In this document: in pieces, positions 24,034 through 60,107 of the stretch
Layout: the number at the start of each line of letters is the position of its first letter
How positions within the stretch are numbered: the stretch's first letter is position 1
Assembly (NCBI RefSeq): GCF_000024845.1
Contig: NC_013501.1
Location: forward strand, 3,080,874-3,144,873
Direction: 5' to 3'
Length of the DNA stretch: 64,000 nucleotides
From: Rhodothermus marinus DSM 4252
Lineage (GTDB): Bacteria; Bacteroidota; Rhodothermia; Rhodothermales; Rhodothermaceae
Program-made: the position numbers and the translations under genes
The notes under the pieces: model-generated
Told to the model about the DNA's origin: nothing
Seen by the model: only the letters and a program-made list of their open reading frames with translations
Database searches by the model: none

Positions 24034-24972
24034 TCAGGACGAAACGCTTGCCTCGCGGGGGACTTCGACGAACGTCAGCCAGCCGTAGGGATCCTTGCCC
24101 TCGCGGACGATCTCGAAGAACGCCCGCTGCAGGGCTTCGGTCACCGGGCCACGCCGTCCCTGACCGATCGTGTAGCGATCGACCGACCGGATCGGCGTGA
24201 TCTCGGCGGCCGTGCCCGTGAAGAACAGCTCGTCGGCAATGTAGAGCGCCTCGCGCGGGATGGGCTGCTCGATCACCGTGTAGCCCAGATCACGCGCCAG
24301 CGTGATGACCGCATCGCGCGTGATGCCCGGCAGGATCGACAGCGTCAGCGGCGCCGTGTAGATGACGCCATCCCGCACCAGGAACAGGTTTTCGCCGCTG
24401 CCCTCGGCCACGTAGCCGTCCACCGACAGCATGATGCCCTCGCTGTAGCCGTTCAGCACGGCCTCCATTTTGACCAGCGCCGCGTTCGCGTAGTTGGCCC
24501 CGGCCTTGGCCATGGCGGGCAGCGTGTTGGGCGCCATCCGGTTCCAGGTGCTCACCTGCACATCCACGCCCTGTTCCAGCGCTTCATCGCCCAGATAGGC
24601 GCCCCAGTCCCAGACGGCAATGGCAACCTCGACCGGGTTTTTCAGCGGGTTGACGCCCAGACTTCCCATTCCCCGGAAGACTACCGGCCGGATGTAGCAG
24701 GCCTTCAGGCCGCTGGCGCGGATGGTTTCGAGCGCAGCCGCTTCCAGTTCCTCCAGCGTGTAGGGCACCTCCATGCGATAGATCCGGGCCGAGTCAAGCA
24801 GCCGCCGCATGTGTTCCCGCAGCCGGAAGACGGCCGGCCCCCGCGCCGTGTTGTAGCAGCGGATCCCCTCGAACACTGACGAACCGTAGTGGACCACGTG
24901 CGAGAGCACGTGGATCTTCGCCTCCTCGAACGGCACCAGTTTGCCGTTAAACCAGATCGGATGTCTGTCCAT
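24034..24972 (-). CDS. ilvE: Branched-chain amino acid aminotransferase
   Basis: PLP fold-type IV aminotransferase, 312 aa, last step of valine, leucine and isoleucine synthesis and first step of their breakdown. Motifs: [17 protein letters not shown], the PLP-lysine region [28 protein letters not shown], and the late [12 protein letters not shown]. This is the class-IV BCAT-I pattern. The window also holds HMG-CoA lyase for leucine catabolism, but the two genes are far apart. Confidence 0.93.
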
Positions 24973-31962: not shown

Positions 31963-34758
31963 TCACGGGCGCTCCGGAAGAAACAGCACAGAACGCGTCT
32001 GAACCTTTCCGTCCGCCTCCAGCCGGATCAGGTACATGCCGGCCGCCAGTCCTTCCGGACGGAAAATGGCCACGTGGCTGCCTGCCGACAGCGTGGCCTC
32101 CATGAGCCGGGCCACCTCGCGTCCCAGCAGGTCGTAGACGACCAGTCGCACGTGCCGGACGGCGTCCAGCGTGAAGGGAATCGAAACCTGCCGGCGGAAC
32201 GGATTCGGGAAAGGCGCCAGCAGTTGCGTCGCGTGGCGCGTGCGCAGCTCGGGGTCGCGCGTGGCCTGCTCCAGCTCCAGCTTTTCGATCGTCCAGAAGG
32301 CACTTGGATCGGCCGCCGCGCAGCCAAAGGTAAACCGCAGCCACTGCTGGCTACCCGCCGCCTCCGAGAGATCGAACGTGTGCTGCATGCCCTCGGGCGG
32401 ACTCGCCGCGCCAAAGGGACGCTTCGGGGTGCCGCCGCTTTCAGGCAACAGCACCTCCCAGGTGCGACCGCCGTCGGCCGAGCTTTCCAGATAGCCCTCG
32501 CAGCTTGCGCCGAAATTGAACCGGTGTGTCAGGTGCAGCCGCAGTCGATCGGCATTGGTGGCCAGCGACACGGGCAACAGCACCAGCGTCGTGTAGCCTG
32601 TCCGCAGGCCATCCACGGTCCAGGCGGCGCCTCCCTGTCGCCAGCCGGAGCCGGCCCGTGCCACCTGCAGCACGTCGGCCGTCGCCACATGCCCCACGTC
32701 CACCTCGTAGGTCTGCACCGGGGCCTGAAGCGGCTGGCGCAGCACCCAGCCGCCGGCCGTCTCGGCCTCCAGGTAGTACTGGATGCGCCCCGGGATGCCG
32801 TCCCAGGGAATCTGTCCTTCGAAGAGCGTGTCGTTGACAGGTTGAAACAGGGCCGTCGGGACGAATTGCCCGGCCTGCTCGTAGAAGGCCTGTACCCGCA
32901 CTACCGAGTCGCCCCGGGCGACGGCCACCACCTGCAGCATTAGATGGTCGGTCTCAATGCGCACATCCTGGTTCGGATCGTGGCGCACAACCAGCCGAAT
33001 GGCGTCCGGATCGACCAGCCCGCGGGCGCCCAACCGATCAACCAGCACGGCCAGGTGCGCCCCGTCGTAATAGTCCATGTCGGCCTGCAAGAGCGCCTGC
33101 GCCGCATCCCGGAACGTGGCCGGCGGACTCAGATACAGCGCGGCCGCCATCGCCAGCCGGTCGGTGACGGCCTTTCCGAGCACGTTCTGAATCTCCATGA
33201 GCACGGTCGCCCAGAGCAGCCCGTCCTTGTAAATGTTGCAGGACTGGCGGGGCGTGTCCTCCCGATCGCAATTGGTGTCTTCCGGATAGCGGCCGGCGAA
33301 GGCGATGCGTCGTCCTTCCCAGATCGTTCCGTCGCCGCTGTCCCAGCGAAAGACGAAGTCCCAGTCCGTGCGGCGCACCAGACCGGCTTCGACCAATCCG
33401 CGCACATAGGAGGCCGCCCAGTAGTCGGCCCACCCTTCGTGGAGCGCGCGCCCTTCGTTGTCGCCGAGCAAACCCGGCGCTGCGTCCTCCAGCAGCGCGT
33501 GCATGTACTCGTGCCAGATCACCGTGGCGTCCTCGGCATCGTCCACGCCACCATCGCCGAAGACGATCGCGTTCTGCGAGGGATAGAATTGCGAGTTGTC
33601 CTGCTGGCCGAAGCCGTGTGGGTTCACCCGGATCGGCGCAGCCAGCACCGCCGTGCCCAGATCGAGCTGCTGCACATAGCGCTGGCTGCGGTCGATGTGG
33701 TAGTAGGCCATGACGGCCTCGAAGTGGTCGTCAGCGCGGGTGTACCGGAAGGCATCGGGCGTAGCCTCGGCCGGTGGGTCGTAGGGTGTGTCGGCAATGC
33801 CCGGAATGTCGCCGGTGATGCGCACGTAAGGGCCTTCGAGCCGGTAGAGGCCATCCCCGCCCTGCGTGATGTCGGGAAGCGTGACGACCAGGCGCTCGGC
33901 GTTCAGCTCGGGTGTGTCGGCGTCGTCGTTGTCGGCGTAGGCGCCGCCGTAGGGGACGCCTGCCGTCGCCAGCGGATCGGGATCGAACACCATCCCTTCG
34001 CCCGTGACCAGACCCACCGGTAACGGTGCGGTGGACGTCCACGCCGCCGTCGCCTTTGCCCGGGTCGCTTTTGCGGGCCGCTCCTGGACGGCCTGACTTC
34101 GCACATGCAGCAACGCGCCGGTATGGGTGTCGATCAGGACTACCCATTCGTCGGGCCGGTCCTGCGGCCAGAGTACGAAATGCCAGGCCAGGCGTGGCGG
34201 CTCCGAAGGCCACACCACCAGCTCCGGCGTGGTCGTCGGGGCCTCGGGCTGCGCCAGCCGGCGCCGCGCTTCGGCCAGGGCCTCGGTCGCCGAAAGCCGT
34301 GGCGTCGGATCGAAGCGGGCGGCGTAGGCCTCCAGCCGGGGTTCGTAGCCGCTGAGCACCAGCGTGGGCCGGCCCCGGCGGTTCAGGTTGACCTGCACGT
34401 AGCGCCCGTAGACGGGAAGACCGGCCAGCGTCTGCCGGAAGCGCACGTGCATGGCGTAGGGCGTGGTGCGCACGCGGTCCACGGCCAGCGTGCGGTCGGG
34501 CTGCCGCCAGCCGAAATGCGCCGCCTCCCGCCTGAGATAGGCGCGAGCGGTGGCCTCGGCGCTTCCCTGCCAGGCTACCGGCGTGCGCACCCGGTAGCGT
34601 GCCTGCCAGCGCCCCGTGATCGGGTCGATGCGTCCTTCCGGAACCGCCTTCGTGGCCGGGGCCTGCAACACCTCGCGCCAGGGTTGCGCCTGCAGGCCCG
34701 CGACGCCCGTCCCCACCAGCAACGCGATCAGTACAATCGCCCGCAACCGGCCGTTCAT
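31963..34758 (-). CDS. Secreted M36 (fungalysin) metallopeptidase with T9SS sorting domain
   Basis: 931-aa extracellular zinc protease. Order: signal peptide (1-24, ends LQAQ), FTP/PepSY-type propeptide (about 40-240), M36 catalytic domain with HEYMH (416-420) and the third ligand Glu441 in HEGWADYWA, a beta-rich middle region (MAM/jelly-roll-like, about 680-840), and a type IX secretion C-terminal domain beginning PFPNPFRRQVSIPF and ending GMYLIRLEADGKVQTRSVLF. The T9SS domain sends it across the outer membrane. Salt- and heat-stable proteolysis for nutrition is the probable role. Confidence 0.92.
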   Translation of the reverse strand: MNGRLRAIVLIALLVGTGVAGLQAQPWREVLQAPATKAVPEGRIDPITGRWQARYRVRTPVAWQGSAEATARAYLRREAAHFGWRQPDRTLAVDRVRTTPYAMHVRFRQTLAGLPVYGRYVQVNLNRRGRPTLVLSGYEPRLEAYAARFDPTPRLSATEALAEARRRLAQPEAPTTTPELVVWPSEPPRLAWHFVLWPQDRPDEWVVLIDTHTGALLHVRSQAVQERPAKATRAKATAAWTSTAPLPVGLVTGEGMVFDPDPLATAGVPYGGAYADNDDADTPELNAERLVVTLPDITQGGDGLYRLEGPYVRITGDIPGIADTPYDPPAEATPDAFRYTRADDHFEAVMAYYHIDRSQRYVQQLDLGTAVLAAPIRVNPHGFGQQDNSQFYPSQNAIVFGDGGVDDAEDATVIWHEYMHALLEDAAPGLLGDNEGRALHEGWADYWAASYVRGLVEAGLVRRTDWDFVFRWDSGDGTIWEGRRIAFAGRYPEDTNCDREDTPRQSCNIYKDGLLWATVLMEIQNVLGKAVTDRLAMAAALYLSPPATFRDAAQALLQADMDYYDGAHLAVLVDRLGARGLVDPDAIRLVVRHDPNQDVRIETDHLMLQVVAVARGDSVVRVQAFYEQAGQFVPTALFQPVNDTLFEGQIPWDGIPGRIQYYLEAETAGGWVLRQPLQAPVQTYEVDVGHVATADVLQVARAGSGWRQGGAAWTVDGLRTGYTTLVLLPVSLATNADRLRLHLTHRFNFGASCEGYLESSADGGRTWEVLLPESGGTPKRPFGAASPPEGMQHTFDLSEAAGSQQWLRFTFGCAAADPSAFWTIEKLELEQATRDPELRTRHATQLLAPFPNPFRRQVSIPFTLDAVRHVRLVVYDLLGREVARLMEATLSAGSHVAIFRPEGLAAGMYLIRLEADGKVQTRSVLFLPERP

Positions 34759-43741: not shown

Positions 43742-43979
43742 GTTGGCAGCCTCATCGGCCGCCCGCTGAACCACAACCCCTGCAGGTCGGGGCAACCTGC
43801 AGTGTACGGACCGTGCTCGTCGGTCCAATGGTGGGGTGCTGCGCACCCGCCACCCGTCGGGCTGGCCGTCCGGGTCCGGCCCGGCCTCGGCCACCGCAAG
43901 GTATGGGCAATCTCGAAAGCGTCGGTGTCATCTGTATGTCACCGGTGTCGCGGGCGAGGCGACCGATCGCGCGGCCGCA
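43742..43979. other. Hairpin-rich intergenic region downstream of ftsZ
   Basis: No gene is apparent in these 238 bases. Several inverted repeats are packed together: CTGCAGGT…ACCTGCAG (8 bp), GGACCG…CGGTCC (6 bp) and GGTGGGGTGC…GCACCCGCCACC (near-perfect). The sequence directly follows the ftsZ stop on the minus strand, so it would be the 3' untranslated region of the dcw transcript. No T-tract terminator was found for ftsZ itself. Confidence 0.5.
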
Positions 43980-45221
43980 TCAGTCCAGCATCTTGCGCAA
44001 AAAAGCCGGCGTGTCCGGATTGTCCTTCCGGATGCGTTCGCCCCGCTCCCGAAGTTCGTCCGCCTGCAACCGACGGATGTTTCCCAGGCGTTCCCCCTCG
44101 GCCGGCGTCGTGCCCGGAATGACGCGCCGCTCGAAAGCCGGCGTGTCGAGCCGCTTCAGGTTTTCCTCGCCTTTGTAGTTGATGTACGGATCTTCGGGCT
44201 CGAGCGGGACGGTCCGGCGGCGTCCCATCGTCTCCGGCCGCTGCTCGCGGTCGAAGCCGGTGGCGATGACCGTCACGCGCAGATCGTCGCCCATGTTGTC
44301 GTCGATCACCGTACCGAAGATGACTTCCACGTCCTCGCCGGCCTCCTGTTGGATGATGCGAACGGCCGTGGTGGCCTCCCGGATACCCAGCGACCGGCCG
44401 GCCGTGATGTTGACCAGCACGTTCCGGGCCCCGGCGATCGAGAGTCCGTCCAGCAGCGGGCTCGAAATGGCTGCAATGGCCGCCTTCTCGGCGCGGTTTT
44501 CGCCCGAAGCCACTGCTGAACCCATGATCGCCGTGCCCCCGTTCTGCATGGTGGTCTTCACGTCGGCGAAGTCCAGGTTGATCAGGCCGTGCACGGTGAT
44601 CAGGTCGCTGATGCCGCGCGTGGCGTTGTAAAGCACCTCGTCGGCCTTGGCAAAAGCCTCCAGCAGCGTGGTGTTTTCGTCGGAGATGTCGAGCAGCCGC
44701 TCGTTCGGGATGACGATCAGCGTATCGACGTTTTCCTTGAGCAGGGCAATGCCGTCGAGGGCGGCCTTCATGCGCTTGGGCCCTTCGCACTCGAACGGCT
44801 TCGTAACGATGGCCACCGTCAGGATGCCCAGTTTCCGGGCAATGGCCGCCACAACAGGCGCCCCACCGGTACCCGTACCGCCGCCCATGCCGGCCGTGAT
44901 AAAGACCATGTCGTAGCCTTTGAGCGCCTGCTCGATCTCCTCACGGCTTTCCTCAACGGCCTGCGCGCCGATGGCAGGCCGGGCGCCGGCACCCAGCCCC
45001 TTGGTCAGATTGCGTCCGACCTGAATCTTCACGGGCGCTTTGTTGGCCGCCAGCGCCTGGGCATCCGTGTTGATCGCGATGAAATCGACCCCCTGGATGC
45101 CCCGCTCCAGCATGTTGTTGATGGCGTTGCCGCCACCGCCGCCGATCCCGACGACACAGATCTTCGCTTCCGGATGCGCCGAGTCGTCGAACGCGAAGCG
45201 CGAGCTGATGGACTGTTCCAT
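43980..45221 (-). CDS. ftsZ: Cell division protein FtsZ
   Basis: Tubulin-like GTPase that forms the division ring, 413 aa. GTP motif GGGTGTG at residues 113-119; NTDAQAL and the T7 loop region NLDFADVKTTMQNGG are typical. The linker is short, and the conserved C-terminal peptide DTPAFLRKMLD, which binds FtsA, is present. GAGGGGAG precedes the ATG. Last gene of the dcw cluster, 84 bp after ftsA. Confidence 0.97.
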   Translation of the reverse strand: MEQSISSRFAFDDSAHPEAKICVVGIGGGGGNAINNMLERGIQGVDFIAINTDAQALAANKAPVKIQVGRNLTKGLGAGARPAIGAQAVEESREEIEQALKGYDMVFITAGMGGGTGTGGAPVVAAIARKLGILTVAIVTKPFECEGPKRMKAALDGIALLKENVDTLIVIPNERLLDISDENTTLLEAFAKADEVLYNATRGISDLITVHGLINLDFADVKTTMQNGGTAIMGSAVASGENRAEKAAIAAISSPLLDGLSIAGARNVLVNITAGRSLGIREATTAVRIIQQEAGEDVEVIFGTVIDDNMGDDLRVTVIATGFDREQRPETMGRRRTVPLEPEDPYINYKGEENLKRLDTPAFERRVIPGTTPAEGERLGNIRRLQADELRERGERIRKDNPDTPAFLRKMLD

Positions 45222-47388: not shown

Positions 47389-48814
47389 GCGGCAACGCTT
47401 CGGTCAGTTTCAGGTAGTCCAGCAGCTCGCGGGCGGCCCGCCAGATGTCGCCGGCTCCCATGAACAGCACGGCATCGCCCGGACGAAGCACGTGCTCCAG
47501 CAGGTAGCCCGGAATCTGCCGGCGCTCGGGCACGTAGTGCACGTCGCGGTGACCGAAACGCCGGGCCAGCTCGGCAATGCGCTCGCCGGTAATCCCCGGA
47601 ATCGGCGCCTCGCGGGCGCCGTAGACGTCGGTCACCACCAGCACGTCGGCATCCACGAAAGACCGGGCAAAGTCCTCCTGAAAGTCCCGCGTGCGACTGT
47701 ACAGGTGCGGCTGAAAGACGGCCACCAGCCGCCGATCGGGCATGGCCGTGGCGGCCGCCTCCAGCGTCGCCCGGATTTCTGTGGGATGGTGGGCGTAGTC
47801 GTCGATGACCAGCACGCCGTGCACCTCGCCCAGCCGCTCGAAGCGACGACGGACGCCCGTAAAGCGGGCCAGTCCGGCCTGAATGGCCTCGAACGGAATA
47901 TCCAGCTCCAGCCCCACGGCCACGGCCGCCAGCGCGTTGCGCACGTTGTGCAGGCCCGGCACCTGAAGCTGGATCGTGCCCAGCGGCTCGCCCTGCAGCA
48001 GCACGTCGAAACGGGAGCCGAAGCCTTCGAACTGTACATTTTCAGCGCGAATCTCCGCCTGTCGGGCCAGCCCGTAGGTGCGCACGCGGCGATCCAGCTG
48101 CCCCACCAGCGCCTGCACGTTCGGATCGTCCAGGCACAGGATGGCGGCCCCGAAGAAGGGGACGCTGCTGGCAAACTGGCGAAAGGCGGCCATCAGGTCG
48201 TCCAGGTCGCGGTAGATGTCCAGGTGCTCCGGCTCGATGCTGGTCACCACGGCCAGCGTGGGCGTCAGCCGCAGGAACGTGCGGTCGTATTCGTCCGCCT
48301 CGATCACGATGATGTCGCCCTCGCCGGCCACCGCGTTCGACTCGAAGGCGGCCACCTTGCCGCCCACAATGATCGTCGGGTCGAACCCGCCTTCGGACAC
48401 CACCAGTCCTACCATCGAGGTGGTGGTCGTCTTGCCGTGCGTGCCGGCCACCCCGATGCCGAACTTCATGCGCATCAGTTCGCCGAGCATCTCGGCCCGG
48501 GGAATCAGCGGAATCCGACGGCGGAGCGCCTCCAGCGTCTCTGGATTCTCCTGCGGCCGAACGGCGGACGAATAGACCACCACGTCGGCGTCGCCCACGT
48601 GCTCGGGCCGATGGCCCTCGTAGACGACGGCCCCCAGTCGCTCCAGCCGTTCCGTGATCTCGCTGCGCTTCAGATCGGACCCCGTCACGCGGAAACCGCG
48701 CAGCAGGAGCACCTCGGCGATCGAGCTCATGCCGATGCCGCCGATGCCCACCATGTGCACATGGCGAACCCGCCCGAACAGGGGCGGTCGGCGCCAGTTT
48801 CCGCGGCTTATCAT
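47375..48814 (-). CDS. murC: UDP-N-acetylmuramate--L-alanine ligase
   Basis: Adds L-Ala to UDP-MurNAc, 479 aa. Motifs: MVGIGGIGMSSIAEVLL for UDP binding, the ATP loop GVAGTHGKTTTTSMVG, the catalytic IEADEYDRTFL and the C-terminal DDYAHHPTEI. ATG 48814 shares ATGA with the murG stop, while longer in-frame extensions run through murG in another frame and are not coding. Confidence 0.96.
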   Translation of the reverse strand: MISRGNWRRPPLFGRVRHVHMVGIGGIGMSSIAEVLLLRGFRVTGSDLKRSEITERLERLGAVVYEGHRPEHVGDADVVVYSSAVRPQENPETLEALRRRIPLIPRAEMLGELMRMKFGIGVAGTHGKTTTTSMVGLVVSEGGFDPTIIVGGKVAAFESNAVAGEGDIIVIEADEYDRTFLRLTPTLAVVTSIEPEHLDIYRDLDDLMAAFRQFASSVPFFGAAILCLDDPNVQALVGQLDRRVRTYGLARQAEIRAENVQFEGFGSRFDVLLQGEPLGTIQLQVPGLHNVRNALAAVAVGLELDIPFEAIQAGLARFTGVRRRFERLGEVHGVLVIDDYAHHPTEIRATLEAAATAMPDRRLVAVFQPHLYSRTRDFQEDFARSFVDADVLVVTDVYGAREAPIPGITGERIAELARRFGHRDVHYVPERRQIPGYLLEHVLRPGDAVLFMGAGDIWRAARELLDYLKLTEALPHAAS

Positions 48815-53695: not shown

Positions 53696-55231
53696 TTACA
53701 GAAACCGGATCGAAGGCGGACGCGCCGGCGTGTGGTAGTGTTCGAAGTATTCCTGCACCAGCTGACGATCGTCCAGTGGAATCTTTTCGGTGCCGATGAT
53801 CTGATAGGCCTCGTGCCCTTTACCGGCCACCAGCACCACATCGCCCGGGCGGCATAGCTTCGCGGCCTGTTCGATGGCCCGGGCCCGGTCCACCTCCCAC
53901 AGCGCCGCTTCGGGGTGCCGCATGCCCTGGCGAATGTCTTCAAAAATCTGGAGCGGATCTTCGGAGCGCGGGTTGTCGCTGGTAACGATTACGCAGTCGG
54001 CCAGGCGCTCGGCCACGGCGCCCATCATGGGCCGCTTGCCCCGATCGCGCTCGCCTCCGCATCCGAAGACGCACCACAGACGCGCTCCTTCGGGCATCAC
54101 CTCGCGGATCGTGCGCAGCACGTTTTCGAGCGCATCGGGCGTGTGCGCATAGTCAACGATAGCCGTGGTGCCGTCTTCGAACGTGAAGCGTTCGAAGCGG
54201 CCGGGAATCTGCGGCACGCGCCCCAGCGCCTCCAGCAGCAGGTCGGGATCCAGTCCCATGGCCCGTCCCACCCCGTAAGCGGCCAACAGGTTGTAGGCGT
54301 TGAAGCAGCCCACCAGCGGAAAGCGCTGAAAGCGTCCGTCAATGTTGAGCGTCAGGCCTTCCAGGCTGTGGCCGACAATGCGCATGCGTATCTGGGCATC
54401 TTCCCGCTGGCCATAGCTGATGCAGCAGGCCTGCGTGTCGGCCACCATGGCGGGGCCGCTGGGATCGTCGATGTTGTAAAGCGCCGTGGCCCGAAACGTC
54501 AGCCCGTCAAAGAGCTTCTTTTTGGCTTTCAGGTAGGCCTCGAACGAGCCGTGATAGTCCAGGTGGTCGCGCGTCAGGTTCGTAAAGACCGCGATGGAGA
54601 ACGACAGGCCGGCCACCCGCTCCTGCTCCAGCGCGTGCGAGGAGACCTCCATCACACAGTTCTTGCAGGGGACGCCCGTCATGCGCCGCAGCAGGTGGTT
54701 CAGCTCGATGGGCCCCGGGGTGGTGTTCGACGCCGGAAGCTCGTGCCGGCCGAACCGGTAGCAGACCGTCCCGATCAGGCCGGTTTCCTGACCGATGGCG
54801 TTCAGCATGTGGTAGACCAGGAAAGCGGTCGTCGTTTTGCCGTTGGTGCCCGTAATGCCGATCAGACGCAGCCGCCGGGCCGGATTCATGTGAAAGATCG
54901 TGGCCAGGATGCCGAGCGCCCGCCGGCTGTTGGACACCTGTACGAAGGAGGCTTTCGGAAAGCGTTCGGCGAACGCCTCCGGCACGAATTCGCCCACCAC
55001 GGCCACGGCACCCCGTTCGATGGCCTGCTCGATGAACCGGTGGCCATCGACGCGCTCGCCCCGCACGGCGACAAACAACCCGCGCGGCTGCACTTCCTGA
55101 CTGTTGTCCGTCAGGTGCGTGAGCTTCCGCGCGGTCGCCGATCCGACGACCGTCTGCAACAGCCCCTCACGCTCCAGTCGCTGGAGCACCCGGGTCAATG
55201 GGATCGGTTGTTTCGGGATAGCTACCGGCAT
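53696..55231 (-). CDS. murE: UDP-MurNAc-tripeptide synthetase
   Basis: Adds the third stem residue to UDP-MurNAc-L-Ala-D-Glu, 511 aa. ATP loop LIGITGTNGKTTTAFLV; EVSSHALEQERVAG; and the substrate motif SDNPRSEDP. DNPR is the meso-diaminopimelate type in characterised MurE enzymes, as opposed to the L-lysine form, so meso-DAP is the predicted third residue. Overlaps ftsI by 10 bp. Confidence 0.95.
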   Translation of the reverse strand: MPVAIPKQPIPLTRVLQRLEREGLLQTVVGSATARKLTHLTDNSQEVQPRGLFVAVRGERVDGHRFIEQAIERGAVAVVGEFVPEAFAERFPKASFVQVSNSRRALGILATIFHMNPARRLRLIGITGTNGKTTTAFLVYHMLNAIGQETGLIGTVCYRFGRHELPASNTTPGPIELNHLLRRMTGVPCKNCVMEVSSHALEQERVAGLSFSIAVFTNLTRDHLDYHGSFEAYLKAKKKLFDGLTFRATALYNIDDPSGPAMVADTQACCISYGQREDAQIRMRIVGHSLEGLTLNIDGRFQRFPLVGCFNAYNLLAAYGVGRAMGLDPDLLLEALGRVPQIPGRFERFTFEDGTTAIVDYAHTPDALENVLRTIREVMPEGARLWCVFGCGGERDRGKRPMMGAVAERLADCVIVTSDNPRSEDPLQIFEDIRQGMRHPEAALWEVDRARAIEQAAKLCRPGDVVLVAGKGHEAYQIIGTEKIPLDDRQLVQEYFEHYHTPARPPSIRFL

Positions 55232-57309
55232 CGCAGATAGACCTCGCTGGGTAAGGGAGCACCCGGTTCAGGCCACTGGGCCACCACCTGTCCATGTCCT
55301 TCAACACGTACCCCCACGCCATAGGTGGCCAGCCAGTAGGTGGCTTGCCGTGCGCTCAGGCCTCGCAGGTCAGGCATCCGGCGCACGAGCGTGTCGGGCG
55401 GCGTTACCTCCAGACGCACGGCATCGCCGGGCGTCACCGGGGTTTCGGGAGCCGGATGCTGATCGGTGACGAAGGCCAGCACTTCGTCCGGACCGGCTAC
55501 CCGCACCCTCAACCCTTCGGCCTGAAGCCGCGCATGCGCGACGGCCAGCGGCTGTCCCTCCAGGATCGGAAGCGGCCGTGCCACCTGCTCCGGCAGCTCC
55601 TCGCGGGGGGCCATGCGCTCGGCAATCTTCGGGAAGGTGCCGATCCAGCGCTCGGCAACGCGTCGGAAGATGGGCGCGGCGACCTGCCCCCCGTAGATGC
55701 TGCGGCGCGGCTCGTCGAGCACCACGATCAGCGCCACCTGCGGATCGTCGGCCGGGAAGAAGCCCACAAACGACGCCCGGTAGGCGCCCGGCTGGTAGCG
55801 TCCGTCCACCACCTTGAAGGCCGTGCCCGTCTTGCCGGCCACGGGTAATCCTTCAACCCGCGCCGCCCTGCCTGTTCCCTCGTTGACCACGCGCTCGAAG
55901 ACGGGGAGCAGCCGCCGGACGGTCTCGCGCCGGAAGGCTCGCCGGATCGAGTCGGGCCGCGCGTGCCAGAGCACCTCCCCCGTAATCGAACGCCGCTCGG
56001 CCACCACGAACGGCCGCACGAGCAGTCCGCCGTTGGCCAGCGCGCAGTAGGCCGTCAGGATCTGGAGTGGCGTGGCATCGACTTCGTAGCCGATGCTCAT
56101 GGAGGTCAGCGTGGTGCCGCTCCAGCGGGACGGACGCTTGAGCGTGCCGCTCACCTCGCCGGGCAAGTCGATCATCGTGGGTTGCCCGAAACCCAGGTTG
56201 CGCGCGTACTGGTAAAGGGCGCCGGGCTTGAGCCGCGTGGCGATTTTGGCGATGCCCACGTTGCTGGAATGCACCAGCGCCTCGGCAAACGAAATACGGC
56301 CGTAGGCATGCACGTCGCGCATGGTGCGTCCGGCGAAGACGGCCCAGCCGGCGCCGGTGTCGATTGTGTCGTCGAGCGCCACCACGCCCTGCTCCAGCGC
56401 GGCAATGGCCGTGATCAGCTTGAACGTGGAGCCGGGCTCCATGCGGTCGGTGATGGCCCGGTTGCGTCGGGCTTCCTCCGAAGCGGCAGCCGGCCGGTTG
56501 GGATCGTAGGTGGGCACGTTCGCCATGGCCAGCACGGCCCCCGTGCGCGGATCCATGGCGATGGCCGTGCCCCAGCGAGCCCCCGCCTCGGCCACACCGC
56601 GTGCCAGCTCCTCTTCCAGAATCGTCTGGCGGATCAGGTCGAGCGTGAGCACCAGCGTCTGCCCGTGCTCGGGCTCGACGACTTCGCCGCCCACCATCGG
56701 CTTGAGCACCCCGCGGCGGTCACGCTGGACCACGCGCCGCCCGGGGCGTCCCTGCAGGTACCGATCATACTGAAGCTCCAGGCCGGCCAGTCCGCGCCCG
56801 TCGGCTCCCACGTAGCCGAGCACGTGCGCCGCCAGCGATCCGTAGGGGTACCAGCGGCTGAAGCGGGGCTCCAGGATGACACCCGGCACCTCCCAGCTCT
56901 CGATGGCCTTTTTCTGGGCTTCGGTCAGTCCTCGCCAGAGCACCACGTAGCGCGGACTCGCGCGCCGGGCCACCCGTTGCCGGAAATACGTTGCCGACCT
57001 TCCGGTCAGGCGCGCCAGTCTTTCAAAGAACGTGGAACCCTGTGCGGCAAAGCCTTCGACTTCAGGATCGAGTGCCAGGTCGTAGCGCACCGTGTTGACG
57101 GCCAGCGCCCGCCCGACCCGATCGAGCATCTCGCCCCGCATGGCGGGGATCTCCACGACGGCCCGCATCTGCCGCCGCCCTTCGGCCCGCAGCGCCGCGC
57201 CCTCGCTCAGATAGATCCAGAGCATGCGCCCCGCGATGGCCAGCGGCCAGAGCGCCATCAGCGTCAGCACCACGTACAGGCGGGTCAGCATGTGATCGCG
57301 GGGCTCCAC
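55222..57309 (-). CDS. ftsI: Division transpeptidase FtsI (PBP3-type) with PASTA domains
   Basis: Septal peptidoglycan transpeptidase, 695 aa. One N-terminal membrane helix (about 9-34), a PBP dimer domain (residues 50-200), then the transpeptidase with STFK (Ser294-Lys297), SSN (348-350) and KTG (493-495), the complete active site. Two PASTA-like repeats follow (about 565-695; PLPILEGQPLAVAHARLQAEGL and MPDLRGLSARQATYWLATYGV), which may bind muropeptide. Start ATG 57309 or 57291. 18 bp after ftsL. Confidence 0.94.
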   Translation of the reverse strand: MEPRDHMLTRLYVVLTLMALWPLAIAGRMLWIYLSEGAALRAEGRRQMRAVVEIPAMRGEMLDRVGRALAVNTVRYDLALDPEVEGFAAQGSTFFERLARLTGRSATYFRQRVARRASPRYVVLWRGLTEAQKKAIESWEVPGVILEPRFSRWYPYGSLAAHVLGYVGADGRGLAGLELQYDRYLQGRPGRRVVQRDRRGVLKPMVGGEVVEPEHGQTLVLTLDLIRQTILEEELARGVAEAGARWGTAIAMDPRTGAVLAMANVPTYDPNRPAAASEEARRNRAITDRMEPGSTFKLITAIAALEQGVVALDDTIDTGAGWAVFAGRTMRDVHAYGRISFAEALVHSSNVGIAKIATRLKPGALYQYARNLGFGQPTMIDLPGEVSGTLKRPSRWSGTTLTSMSIGYEVDATPLQILTAYCALANGGLLVRPFVVAERRSITGEVLWHARPDSIRRAFRRETVRRLLPVFERVVNEGTGRAARVEGLPVAGKTGTAFKVVDGRYQPGAYRASFVGFFPADDPQVALIVVLDEPRRSIYGGQVAAPIFRRVAERWIGTFPKIAERMAPREELPEQVARPLPILEGQPLAVAHARLQAEGLRVRVAGPDEVLAFVTDQHPAPETPVTPGDAVRLEVTPPDTLVRRMPDLRGLSARQATYWLATYGVGVRVEGHGQVVAQWPEPGAPLPSEVYLRCR

Positions 57310-57327: not shown

Positions 57328-57741
57328 TCAGGGTTGCACATGAATGACCACCGGTCCGTAGGTGAAGCCTTCCTCCAGGCCCAGCGCCCGGGCGCGCTCG
57401 TAGATGACGGCCGGACTCGTGGCCCGGTCGAATTCGCCCTTCAACCGGTTGTATGTGAGCACCAGCTGCAGATGCTCGCGCCGCAGGCGCTGCACTTCCT
57501 GAAGCGCCTCCCGCGTGGCGTACACGTGCCACACGTAGGCGACAAACAGCGCGGCCGCCGCCACCACGTACAGCGTGAGCCGCCGCGCCGAGAAGCGGAC
57601 GGTCCGGGGCTGATCCGCCCGGGCCGACTCCCGGCGTGCCAGCTCACGCCACGACGGCCAGCGTGTCGTCGCACGCGCCGTCGGACGCTTCGGGCGGCCC
57701 TGACGGCCGCTTCGGCGTGTTTTCGTGCGTGTTCTGATCAT
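57328..57741 (-). CDS. ftsL: FtsL-like division protein
   Basis: 137-aa bitopic protein: an Arg/Lys/Thr-rich cytoplasmic tail of about 50 residues, one membrane helix (LTLYVVAAAALFVAYVWHVY) and a short coiled-coil (REALQEVQRLRREHLQLVLTYNRLKGEF) ending in a conserved-looking ERARALGLEEG. The layout and place between rsmH and ftsI identify it as the FtsL equivalent; sequence alone is too divergent. ATGA overlap with rsmH. Confidence 0.82.
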   Translation of the reverse strand: MIRTRTKTRRSGRQGRPKRPTARATTRWPSWRELARRESARADQPRTVRFSARRLTLYVVAAAALFVAYVWHVYATREALQEVQRLRREHLQLVLTYNRLKGEFDRATSPAVIYERARALGLEEGFTYGPVVIHVQP

Positions 57742-58724
57742 GCGTTTTCCGTTTCCGCTACCCGTTCGGCAATGCGCAATCGGGCGCTCCGGGCCCGCGG
57801 GTTGGCGGCCACTTCGTCGTCGGAGGGTCGGATCGCCCGGCGGGTCAGCGGCCGCCAGGGCGCGATCAGGCGCCCGTAAAAGTCGCGCACGGGCTCGCCT
57901 TTCAGGTTACCGTACCGCAGAAAGCGCTTCACGCGGCGGTCCTCCAGTGAATGGTAGCTGAGCACGACCAGCCGTCCACCCGGACGCACCCGGCGCGTGG
58001 CGGCTTCCAGCGCCCGTTCCAGCGCCTGCAACTCGTCGTTGACGGCAATGCGCAGCGCCTGGAAGACGCGCGCCAGTGTCTTGGTCGCCTCCTTTGGCGA
58101 CACCTCGCGCCGCACGACCTCGGCCAGTTCGGCGGTGGTCCGGATCGGCCGGGCCCGACAGATGGCGCGGGCCAGCTTACGCGCGCGCGGCTCCTCGCCG
58201 TAGCGCCGCAGCACCTCGGCCAGCTCGTATTCGCTCCAGCGCTCCAGGAGCTGGGCGGCCGTCGGACCCGGACTCGTCGGGTCCATGCGCATGTCGAGCG
58301 GCCCTTCGGCCTGGAAGCTGAACCCGCGCAGCGCTTCGTCGAGCTGGTGCGAGGAGACGCCCAGGTCCAGCAGCAACCCGTCGATCTGTGCCACCCCGAG
58401 CCGGTCCAGGATCGCCTCCAGGTCGGCAAAATTGCCCTGCACGAGCTGGAGACGTCCGGCCTCGATGGCGTCGCTCAGCCGGCGGCGCACTGCCTCCAGG
58501 GCCTCCGGGTCCCGGTCGATGCCGATCACACGCCCTTCGGGCGCCAGCGCATCGAGCAGGGCGGCCGCGTGCCCGCCGCCGCCGATCGTGGCGTCCACGT
58601 AGCAGCCCGCCGGATCGGTGACCAACCCTTCGACGACAGCCTTCCAAAGAACCGGTACGTGATACGGCGAGCCATAAGGCCCCGCCGCTCCGGTATCTGT
58701 ATGCGCCGACCGCTCGCTCATCAC
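57738..58724 (-). CDS. rsmH: 16S rRNA m4C1402 methyltransferase
   Basis: N4-methylates C1402 of 16S rRNA, 328 aa (MraW). SAM loop YVDATIGGGGHAAALLDAL, HVPVLWKAVVEGL near the start, LLLDLGVSSHQLDEALRGFSF and SYHSLEDRRVKRFL. Overlaps mraZ and ftsL by 4 bp each. Confidence 0.96.
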   Translation of the reverse strand: MMSERSAHTDTGAAGPYGSPYHVPVLWKAVVEGLVTDPAGCYVDATIGGGGHAAALLDALAPEGRVIGIDRDPEALEAVRRRLSDAIEAGRLQLVQGNFADLEAILDRLGVAQIDGLLLDLGVSSHQLDEALRGFSFQAEGPLDMRMDPTSPGPTAAQLLERWSEYELAEVLRRYGEEPRARKLARAICRARPIRTTAELAEVVRREVSPKEATKTLARVFQALRIAVNDELQALERALEAATRRVRPGGRLVVLSYHSLEDRRVKRFLRYGNLKGEPVRDFYGRLIAPWRPLTRRAIRPSDDEVAANPRARSARLRIAERVAETENA

Positions 58725-59164
58725 GCCGCCATCACCCTTTCGGCCAGCGTCTCGTAGCTCTCCATTTCCCTGTTCACGAACTGATCGAACGTGGCCGGAT
58801 CCCAGATCTCAATGTGATCGAGCGCCCCGATGATCAGCGCCCGATCCTTGATGCCCGCAAACTCCATCAGCGGCTTGGGCAACACGATGCGCCCCTGCCG
58901 GTCCAGCGTGACCTCCTCGGCCCAGCGCAGCAGCTGGCGCACGAAGTTGCGCGCCTCGCGCTGATACAGGTTGAGCGACATCATCTGCTCTTCGATCTCC
59001 TCCCAGCGATCGAGCGGATACAGAAAGATGCACTGCTCGAAGCCGCGCGTGGCCGTGAAGGTCCCCTTGGCCTCGGGCTTCAGGACGGCCCGCATTTTGG
59101 CCGGAATGGCCACCCGGCCTTTCTCGTCCACGGAGTACTCGGCCTGTCCCTTGAAGCCCGCCAT
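58721..59164 (-). CDS. mraZ: MraZ transcriptional regulator
   Basis: First gene of the dcw cluster, 147 aa, two SpoVT/AbrB-like MraZ repeats (YSVDEKGRVAIPAKMRAVLK; VTLDRQGRIVLPKPLMEFAG) that form a ring and bind GTGGG-type repeats upstream of their own operon. A GGGGGAGC ribosome site precedes the ATG by 4 bases. Three GTGGG boxes lie 53-77 bases upstream, see the next entry. Confidence 0.96.
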   Translation of the reverse strand: MAGFKGQAEYSVDEKGRVAIPAKMRAVLKPEAKGTFTATRGFEQCIFLYPLDRWEEIEEQMMSLNLYQREARNFVRQLLRWAEEVTLDRQGRIVLPKPLMEFAGIKDRALIIGALDHIEIWDPATFDQFVNREMESYETLAERVMAA

Positions 59165-59216: not shown

Positions 59217-59241
59217 CCCCACTTTTCCCCACCACCCCCAC
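59217..59241 (-). promoter_or_regulatory. Candidate MraZ operator: three GTGGG boxes
   Basis: Read on the minus strand, GTGGGG occurs at 59241, 59232 and 59222 (first base), spaced 9 and 10 bases, one helical turn. Known MraZ operators are tandem GTGGG/TGGGN boxes at 10-bp steps, so the match is good. The third box also forms an inverted repeat GTGGG-AA-TTCCCCAC with 59206-59222. Confidence 0.7.
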
Positions 59242-59269
59242 AAGGTACATATTTTTTTCAAAAAGTCAA
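59241..59269 (-). promoter_or_regulatory. Possible promoter of the dcw cluster
   Basis: On the minus strand TTGACT (59269-59264) is followed 16 bases later by TACCTTG (59247-59241), similar to a TTG / TAnnTTTG pair. The first MraZ box begins inside the -7 element, which would suit repression by MraZ. AT-rich sequence surrounds it. Confidence 0.45.
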
Positions 59270-59361
59270 GCTTTTTCGCACGAGATAAGGCATTTTTCCC
59301 GCTTCCACCCACTATGCCAGAACCGCCTGTTTTGCACAAAAAGCGCCATTTTTTTCCGGAT

Positions 59362-59381
59362 TGGTGAAAATATTTTCACCA
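59362..59381. promoter_or_regulatory. Palindromic operator 1 upstream of the LexA-like gene
   Basis: TGGTGAAAATATTTTCACCA is a perfect 20-bp palindrome. It lies 79 bases before the LexA-like ATG and has a second, near-identical copy 32 bases further on. It is unlike the CTGT-N8-ACAG operator of gammaproteobacterial LexA and the GAAC-N4-GTTC operator of Bacillus LexA. Confidence 0.75.
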
Positions 59382-59394
59382 CACAATCTGGACT

Positions 59395-59412
59395 GGTAAA
59401 AATCTTTTCACC
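59395..59412. promoter_or_regulatory. Palindromic operator 2 upstream of the LexA-like gene
   Basis: GGTAAAAATCTTTTCACC matches operator 1 at 16 of 18 positions. Its end is 4 bases from the TATCTTTG promoter element, so a protein bound here would block RNA polymerase. Centre-to-centre distance to operator 1 is 32 bp, about three helical turns, placing both on one face of the DNA. Confidence 0.72.
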
Positions 59413-59416
59413 TGCT

Positions 59417-59424
59417 TATCTTTG
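59417..59424 (+). promoter_or_regulatory. -7 promoter element of the LexA-like gene
   Basis: TATCTTTG matches the Bacteroidota -7 consensus TAnnTTTG exactly, 36 bases before the ATG. A clear -33 TTTG is not visible; operator 2 fills that space. Confidence 0.6.
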
Positions 59425-59459: not shown

Positions 59460-60107
59460 ATGAAGGGCCGCCTGACCGCGCGACAGAACGAAGCCTACGA
59501 GTTCATCCGCACCTACCAGCGCCGCCACCACAAACCCCCCACCCTCCAGGAGATCGGCGAAGCGCTGGGCATCCGCTCCACCAATGGCGTCTTCAAGCTG
59601 CTCCGGGCGCTCGAAAAGAAAGGCTATCTCCGCCGGGACCCCGGCGCCGCCCGCGGCCTGCACCTGCTCGACAGCGACGATCCGTTCGCGCTGACCGACG
59701 AGGTGCCCAGCCTGCCGGTCATCAGCCGCACGGCCAGCCACGAGCCCGAACGCCTCCGCGCCCGACCGGCCGGCTTCCTCTCGGTCGATCCGTTCTTTCT
59801 GCCCCGGGGCCTCGACCCCGATGCCTGCCTGATCGGCCGCGCCGGCGACGACGGCATGAGCGGCGAAGGTATCTTCAAAGGCGATCTGCTCCTGATCGAA
59901 GAAGTGCCCTGGCGCACGCTGAACAACCGCGAGCTGGTCGCCTGTCTGGTGGGCGAATTGCTACTGGCCCGCCGCTTCGTCTTCGCCAACAACCGGATCC
60001 ACCTCCAGCCGGCCAACCGGACCTACCTGGAGGAGGTCTTCCCTCCGGACGACCCGGGCTGCTACGTCGTCGGTCGCATCCGGGCCGTCTTCCGACGCCT
60101 TCCATAA
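59460..60107 (+). CDS. LexA-family repressor with a degenerate (inactive) protease domain
   Basis: 215 aa with LexA layout. Residues 1-70 are a LexA winged helix (RLTARQNEAYEFIRTY, KPPTLQEIGEALGIRS, LEKKGYLRRD). Residues 80-215 follow the S24 fold, but the active site is lost. The motif usually GxSM-x3-GI reads GDDGM-x3-GI, so catalytic Ser (E. coli Ser119) is Gly132. The strand usually EVTVKRL reads ELLLARRF, so Lys156 is Ala170. The Ala-Gly cleavage site before E-P is Ala-Ser-His. It therefore should not self-cleave with RecA. It may bind the two operators in front of its own promoter. Confidence 0.88.
   Translation: MKGRLTARQNEAYEFIRTYQRRHHKPPTLQEIGEALGIRSTNGVFKLLRALEKKGYLRRDPGAARGLHLLDSDDPFALTDEVPSLPVISRTASHEPERLRARPAGFLSVDPFFLPRGLDPDACLIGRAGDDGMSGEGIFKGDLLLIEEVPWRTLNNRELVACLVGELLLARRFVFANNRIHLQPANRTYLEEVFPPDDPGCYVVGRIRAVFRRLP

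Follow-up and report, generated by a model that had tools for sequence, protein, structure and literature searches.

LexA couples DNA damage to division through self-destruction, and MraZ is a regulator encoded first in the dcw cluster. The LexA of Synechocystis PCC 6803 has neither the cleavage site nor the catalytic Ser, and its role lies outside SOS (PMC7567884, PMC3091678), with Gly-Gly reported at the cleavage site and Asp in place of Ser (PMC3091678). A non-canonical, CI-like LexA of Bacteroidetes has a phage-type HTH and keeps the catalytic residues (PMC8565304). A literature search, with subscription journals mostly outside its scope, returned no published account of the protein described here. 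In a stretch of 64,000 nucleotides from Rhodothermus marinus DSM 4252 (the whole stretch that was analyzed; hereafter, the window), we found a LexA-like gene for which sequence comparison establishes that the nucleophile, the base, and the scissile bond of self-cleavage are lost, that the replacing residues are conserved, and that divergent synteny with mraZ is kept. The gene and its parts are as follows.

59460 to 60107, plus strand: LexA-like gene (215 aa) with a degenerate S24 domain, the sole LexA of the genome
59469 to 59657, plus strand: LexA winged-helix DNA-binding domain, residues 4-66 (PF01726, E 7.8e-19)
59736 to 59741, plus strand: former cleavage site, Ser93-His94 replacing Ala84-Gly85 (phmmer against 1jhf; MAFFT)
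59847 to 59858, plus strand: D130-D131-G132-M133 motif, G132 replacing catalytic Ser119 (invariant in a 32-sequence alignment; Gly in 47/47)
59970 to 59972, plus strand: Arg171 replacing catalytic Lys156 (three alignments; Arg in 47/47)

The winged helix named in the preliminary description was recovered by the Pfam LexA_DNA_bind model, and the S24 fold by Peptidase_S24 (PF00717, E 3.6e-8), with a score of 94.9 bits against the LexA equivalog TIGR00498 (NCBIfam) that does not reach its cutoff of 110.95. The nearest solved structures by sequence are LexA proteins (phmmer), and these are also the best PDB matches of an AlphaFold (AF2) model (pLDDT 90.5; pTM 0.63, domain arrangement uncertain), in which the LexA C-terminal domain is matched with a TM of 0.78 by target and an rmsd of 2.8. 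The three features of LexA self-cleavage are absent, as the preliminary description had proposed: Ser119 corresponds to Gly132 and the Ala-Gly bond to Ser93-His94, both by phmmer against 1jhf and by MAFFT, and hhalign likewise places Ser119 on Gly132. Its pairing of Lys156 with Ala170 has to be corrected, since phmmer against 1jhf, MAFFT with the E. coli and Thermotoga maritima proteins, and a profile-profile comparison (hhalign) with cleavable LexAs of the same order concur on Arg171, so that the earlier assignment was one residue out of register and the base changed from Lys to Arg, not to Ala. With these features lost, the protein would be independent of RecA-stimulated cleavage, a reading of the preliminary description that the sequence supports well.

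LexA-type matches occur in 111 of the 114 genomes of the order (Rhodothermales), mostly one to three in each, and the proteins at the listed loci were sorted into type A and type B by profile score. Type A comprises orthologues of the window gene, with a core of 47 members from 46 genomes among the matches listed; members of family f13, which are more divergent (some with D-D-S-M and Arg), were left out of this core. When the Ser/Lys sites were mapped across the order's LexA proteins, a check suggested by the preliminary description, Gly and Arg occupied the catalytic positions in all 47 core members among the matches listed, which is more than chance, and Ala-Gly was kept in only one of them (absent in 46/47). 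Residues D130, D131, G132, M133, and R171 are invariant in the 32-sequence type-A alignment, and D-D-G-M is nearly invariant in the wider type-A set (one D-A-G-M). Within Rhodothermus, the dN/dS of the C-terminal domain is 0.02-0.08 (some dS values are near saturation), indicating that this domain is under purifying selection; these values and the conservation rule out a pseudogene or decaying LexA. Type B is the ordinary LexA, with AG, Ser, and Lys intact in 85 of 95 proteins among the matches listed. It shares its domain layout with type A (~30% identity by profile alignment) but differs in its intact AG/Ser/Lys, in its upstream repeat (CACAT-N6-CACA), and in having mraZ as a neighbor at none of the type-B loci read. 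In families f9 and f11, the C-terminal domain of type B is decayed (L047, L048, L113, L121, L148), which represents a distinct loss of cleavage features.

Beyond the order, a type-A profile search covered 394 genomes of the phylum, and 20 of the loci were read. Families f40, f34, f36, and f31 contain proteins that combine Arg with DDGM, DDAM, or DDTM, and in the first three of these the uncleavable lexA gene is likewise divergent from mraZ. Two f40 genomes encode the FMO bacteriochlorophyll protein, which marks f40 as green-sulfur-like. In a maximum-likelihood tree with a midpoint root and some long-branched rows, a branch supported at 100/99 split the uncleavable proteins from all canonical LexA, those of E. 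coli and T. maritima included, and this split persisted at 95/87 in a smaller set from which f13 and three active-site regions had been removed. For the E. coli sequence of this tree, PDB 1jhf served to check the residue mapping. The window protein fits this clade by its DDGM-type motif with Arg, its divergent mraZ, and its place in the tree. Judged from these comparisons, the uncleavable mraZ-linked LexA is an old, clade-wide conserved subfamily, not a decaying LexA.

In the R. marinus genome (3.39 Mb, 2 contigs), no gene other than the window gene matches the LexA DNA-binding domain, and no other matches S24 above cutoff; one LexA per genome was found in all seven Rhodothermus genomes (the source genome and six others). 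An intact second lexA, which the preliminary description proposed to look for, was found in none of these seven and is present in many other genera of the order; Salinibacter, for one, carries both types. Uncleavable and intact copies occur together in 29 genomes among the matches listed; type B is absent from Rhodothermus, and its absences from other genomes rest on the matches listed, a few being less certain. RecA was found in all three Rhodothermus genomes searched, and a Y-family polymerase in only one of seven. No CACAT-N6-CACA repeat was found upstream of recA in seven genomes. Since no cleavable LexA was found in Rhodothermus, this genus would be without a LexA-run SOS response.

The features that surround the LexA-like gene, including its predicted regulatory sites, are given below.

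58721 to 59164, minus strand: mraZ, first dcw gene, transcribed away from the lexA-like gene (name based on sequence and position; the neighbor is conserved)
57738 to 58724, minus strand: rsmH (mraW), dcw cluster (named from sequence)
55222 to 57309, minus strand: ftsI-like penicillin-binding protein gene, dcw cluster (named from sequence)
43980 to 45221, minus strand: ftsZ, far end of the dcw cluster (named from sequence)
59242 to 59270, minus strand: predicted mraZ promoter CTTGAC-N17-TACCTT (conserved genus-wide and in further families)
59217 to 59232, minus strand: MraZ-box-like repeats (CCCCACTTTTCCCCAC on the plus strand; in about 50 of 55 upstream regions)
59363 to 59380, no strand assigned: predicted operator 1, perfect palindrome GGTGAAAATATTTTCACC (pattern matches, shuffles)
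59395 to 59412, no strand assigned: predicted operator 2, GGTAAAAATCTTTTCACC, 32 bp from operator 1 (pattern matches, shuffles)
59417 to 59422, plus strand: TATCTT, predicted -10 element for the lexA-like gene, lying 4 bp beyond operator 2 (conserved among the aligned Rhodothermus sequences)

The position beside the dcw cluster noted in the preliminary description is borne out: mraZ, which starts 295 bp upstream of the lexA-like gene on the opposite strand, heads a cluster that runs to ftsZ, and a divergent mraZ neighbor is present at 38 of the 40 type-A loci checked. Between the two genes lie two palindromes of 18 bp (GGTGAAAATNNTTTCACC) whose spacing corresponds to whole helical turns; shuffles gave 0.01 expected operator matches per window. 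The pattern GGTNAAAANNNTTTNACC occurs at two places in the genome, operators 1 and 2, and a pattern search that allowed up to 2 mismatches found no further near-perfect site in the source genome, with a consensus and threshold of our own choosing under which weaker sites elsewhere could be missed. At the near-perfect level that the pattern search covers, sites were seen only upstream of the lexA-like gene and none at recA or repair genes. In ten genomes searched with at most 2 mismatches, most matches away from the locus were at the level of a reversed-pattern control. High-scoring sites are thus confined to the lexA-mraZ locus in R. marinus-type genomes, as far as such pattern searches reach. 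One genome (G020) has one further good match away from its lexA locus (L076, G020:C14:13009).

Of 55 type-A genes, 46 have at least one operator match in the upstream region and 36 have two (shuffles: 0.6%), with pair spacings of 22, 31-33, 41-43, or 54 bp across type-A loci and a Rayleigh R of 0.91 at 10.5 bp (from a hand-compiled genus-level list in which genera were treated as independent). Tandem palindromes about 34 bp apart are also present upstream in f40, yet with a different sequence (read by eye). Where the mraZ promoter is recognized, operator 1 and the predicted -35 are in most cases 90-123 bp apart, and operator 1 is mostly 124-167 bp from the MraZ-box. The latter distance shows weak phasing (R 0.56, simulated p 0.006), which is only suggestive because genera are not independent; no phasing is seen for the control distance between operator 2 and the lexA ATG. 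Operator 2 ends 4 bp before the conserved TATCTT and would thus block the promoter of the lexA-like gene itself. The predicted mraZ promoter is free of operator overlap, and control of dcw can therefore be inferred only indirectly.

Other elements were observed in the same intergenic regions. A DnaA-box-like sequence (TTATCCACA) occurs in 11 of 39 lexA-mraZ intergenic regions, compared to 0.04 expected in shuffles, in families f7, f9, f11, f13, and f14 (e.g., L029, L012, L026, L073, L038). CACATAT elements occur in 19 of 39 (1.6 expected), in f4, f5, f9, f10, f12, and f14 (e.g., L028, L032), are absent in Rhodothermus and f11, and may be sites of the cleavable LexA.

At the other end of the cluster, a palindrome (GGTGTCATCTGTATGTCACC) is located at 43924-43943, just beyond the ftsZ stop, and in Rhodothermus related GGTGACA-N6-TGTCACC palindromes lie close to recA, ssb, and a gyrA/parC-like gene, among other genes, with several copies right at gene ends. 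Repeated TGTGACAATTCCGTGTCACA palindromes are present on a plasmid-sized contig of 125 kb (contig C2 of G000; e.g., 24866-24885, 33223-33242, 48646-48665, 66454-66473), one of them near a Csm5-like gene. The excess of GGTGACA-N6-TGTCACC over the control is clear mainly in the source genome and derives partly from plasmid repeats. The copy near recA resembled another SOS operator, but the position of several copies at gene ends, as for a hairpin, and the limited excess speak against this; the element may be a terminator-like hairpin or an operator.

From these results, we propose that the window protein is probably a LexA-fold regulator that cannot be cleaved, with an old history in the Rhodothermia/green-sulfur part of the phylum, and that it would bind two phased palindromes between its own promoter and that of mraZ. 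In the predicted arrangement, two dimers (probably) would sit on the helically phased operators. Operator 2 covers the -35/spacer of the protein's own promoter, which is a strong indication that it would repress itself, and, with moderate support, the mraZ/dcw promoter would be modulated from ~90-120 bp upstream, alongside MraZ; control of dcw is in this sense plausible. A protein that cannot cleave itself would not be switched by RecA, and its activity could instead depend on how much of it is present, on a ligand or modification, or on proteolysis. The most likely role is that of an autorepressor that is blind to RecA and serves the lexA-mraZ region alone. Because the self-cutting parts are lost and the predicted sites lie only at the division cluster, its probable targets are division genes or its own gene, not the SOS response. 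A wider scenario is tentative, and we hold it with somewhat less than even confidence: a single early origin from LexA in the phylum of a dedicated, RecA-blind cell-division regulator, in which a conserved Asp-Gly/Arg took the place of Ser/Lys and may respond to a different signal, the regulator working at the dcw promoter together with MraZ (in some families also with DnaA).

It is rather unlikely that the protein only represses itself and that adjacency to mraZ is inherited without regulatory effect on the division genes. The placement of operator 2 and its spacing to the -10 suit autorepression, and the distance that separates operator 1 from the predicted mraZ -35 also favors this reading, but a regulator that targets only itself would hardly persist so long, several families within the phylum share the divergent pairing with mraZ, and the distance from operator 1 to the MraZ-box is fairly narrow and weakly phased. 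Improbable, in turn, is a DNA-damage response still run by this protein and relieved in another way, such as proteolysis that depends on RecA or on damage and involves no self-cleavage: RecA is present and this is the sole LexA in Rhodothermus, but the genome has no other near-perfect operator, the Y-family polymerase was found in only one of seven Rhodothermus genomes, and many other genera have a cleavable LexA available for SOS. Self-cleavage by substitute residues, such as Ser134 as nucleophile (a Ser does follow Met133 in Rhodothermus) and Arg171 as base (it retains the positive charge), can be dismissed as highly improbable, because position 134 is S, N, A, I, T, G, or E among orthologues and is not a conserved catalytic residue, Gly is fixed at the nucleophile position, and Ala-Gly is almost always missing.

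If a RecA-blind regulator of the lexA-mraZ region is the correct reading, the LexA fold has been reused for a different job in a long-conserved branch fixed at the division cluster, one cultured thermophile genus lacks a LexA-run SOS response, and a second regulator stands beside MraZ at the head of dcw. A 'LexA' annotation in these groups should not be counted as evidence of SOS. Compared to canonical LexA (E. coli; PF01726 with PF00717; TIGR00498), the protein shares the winged helix, the S24 fold, and (as predicted here) autorepression through palindromic operators, but it is without the Ser, Lys, and Ala-Gly, falls below the TIGR00498 cutoff, and has high-scoring operators at its own locus only. 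MraZ is also a regulator at the dcw head, with MraZ-box-like repeats in the same intergenic region as the LexA-like operators, but it has an unrelated fold and direct-repeat boxes. The CI-like LexA is another departure from the classical protein in the same phylum, and differs from the Rhodothermus protein in that the latter has a LexA winged helix and no catalytic residues. The Synechocystis LexA, which the preliminary description cited as a parallel, is a fair functional likeness, not a shown relative, given the Gly-Gly and the Ser-to-Asp change reported there (PMC3091678); it is reported to control various cellular processes, whereas the Rhodothermus group is a multi-family, mraZ-tied clade with a single-locus operator.
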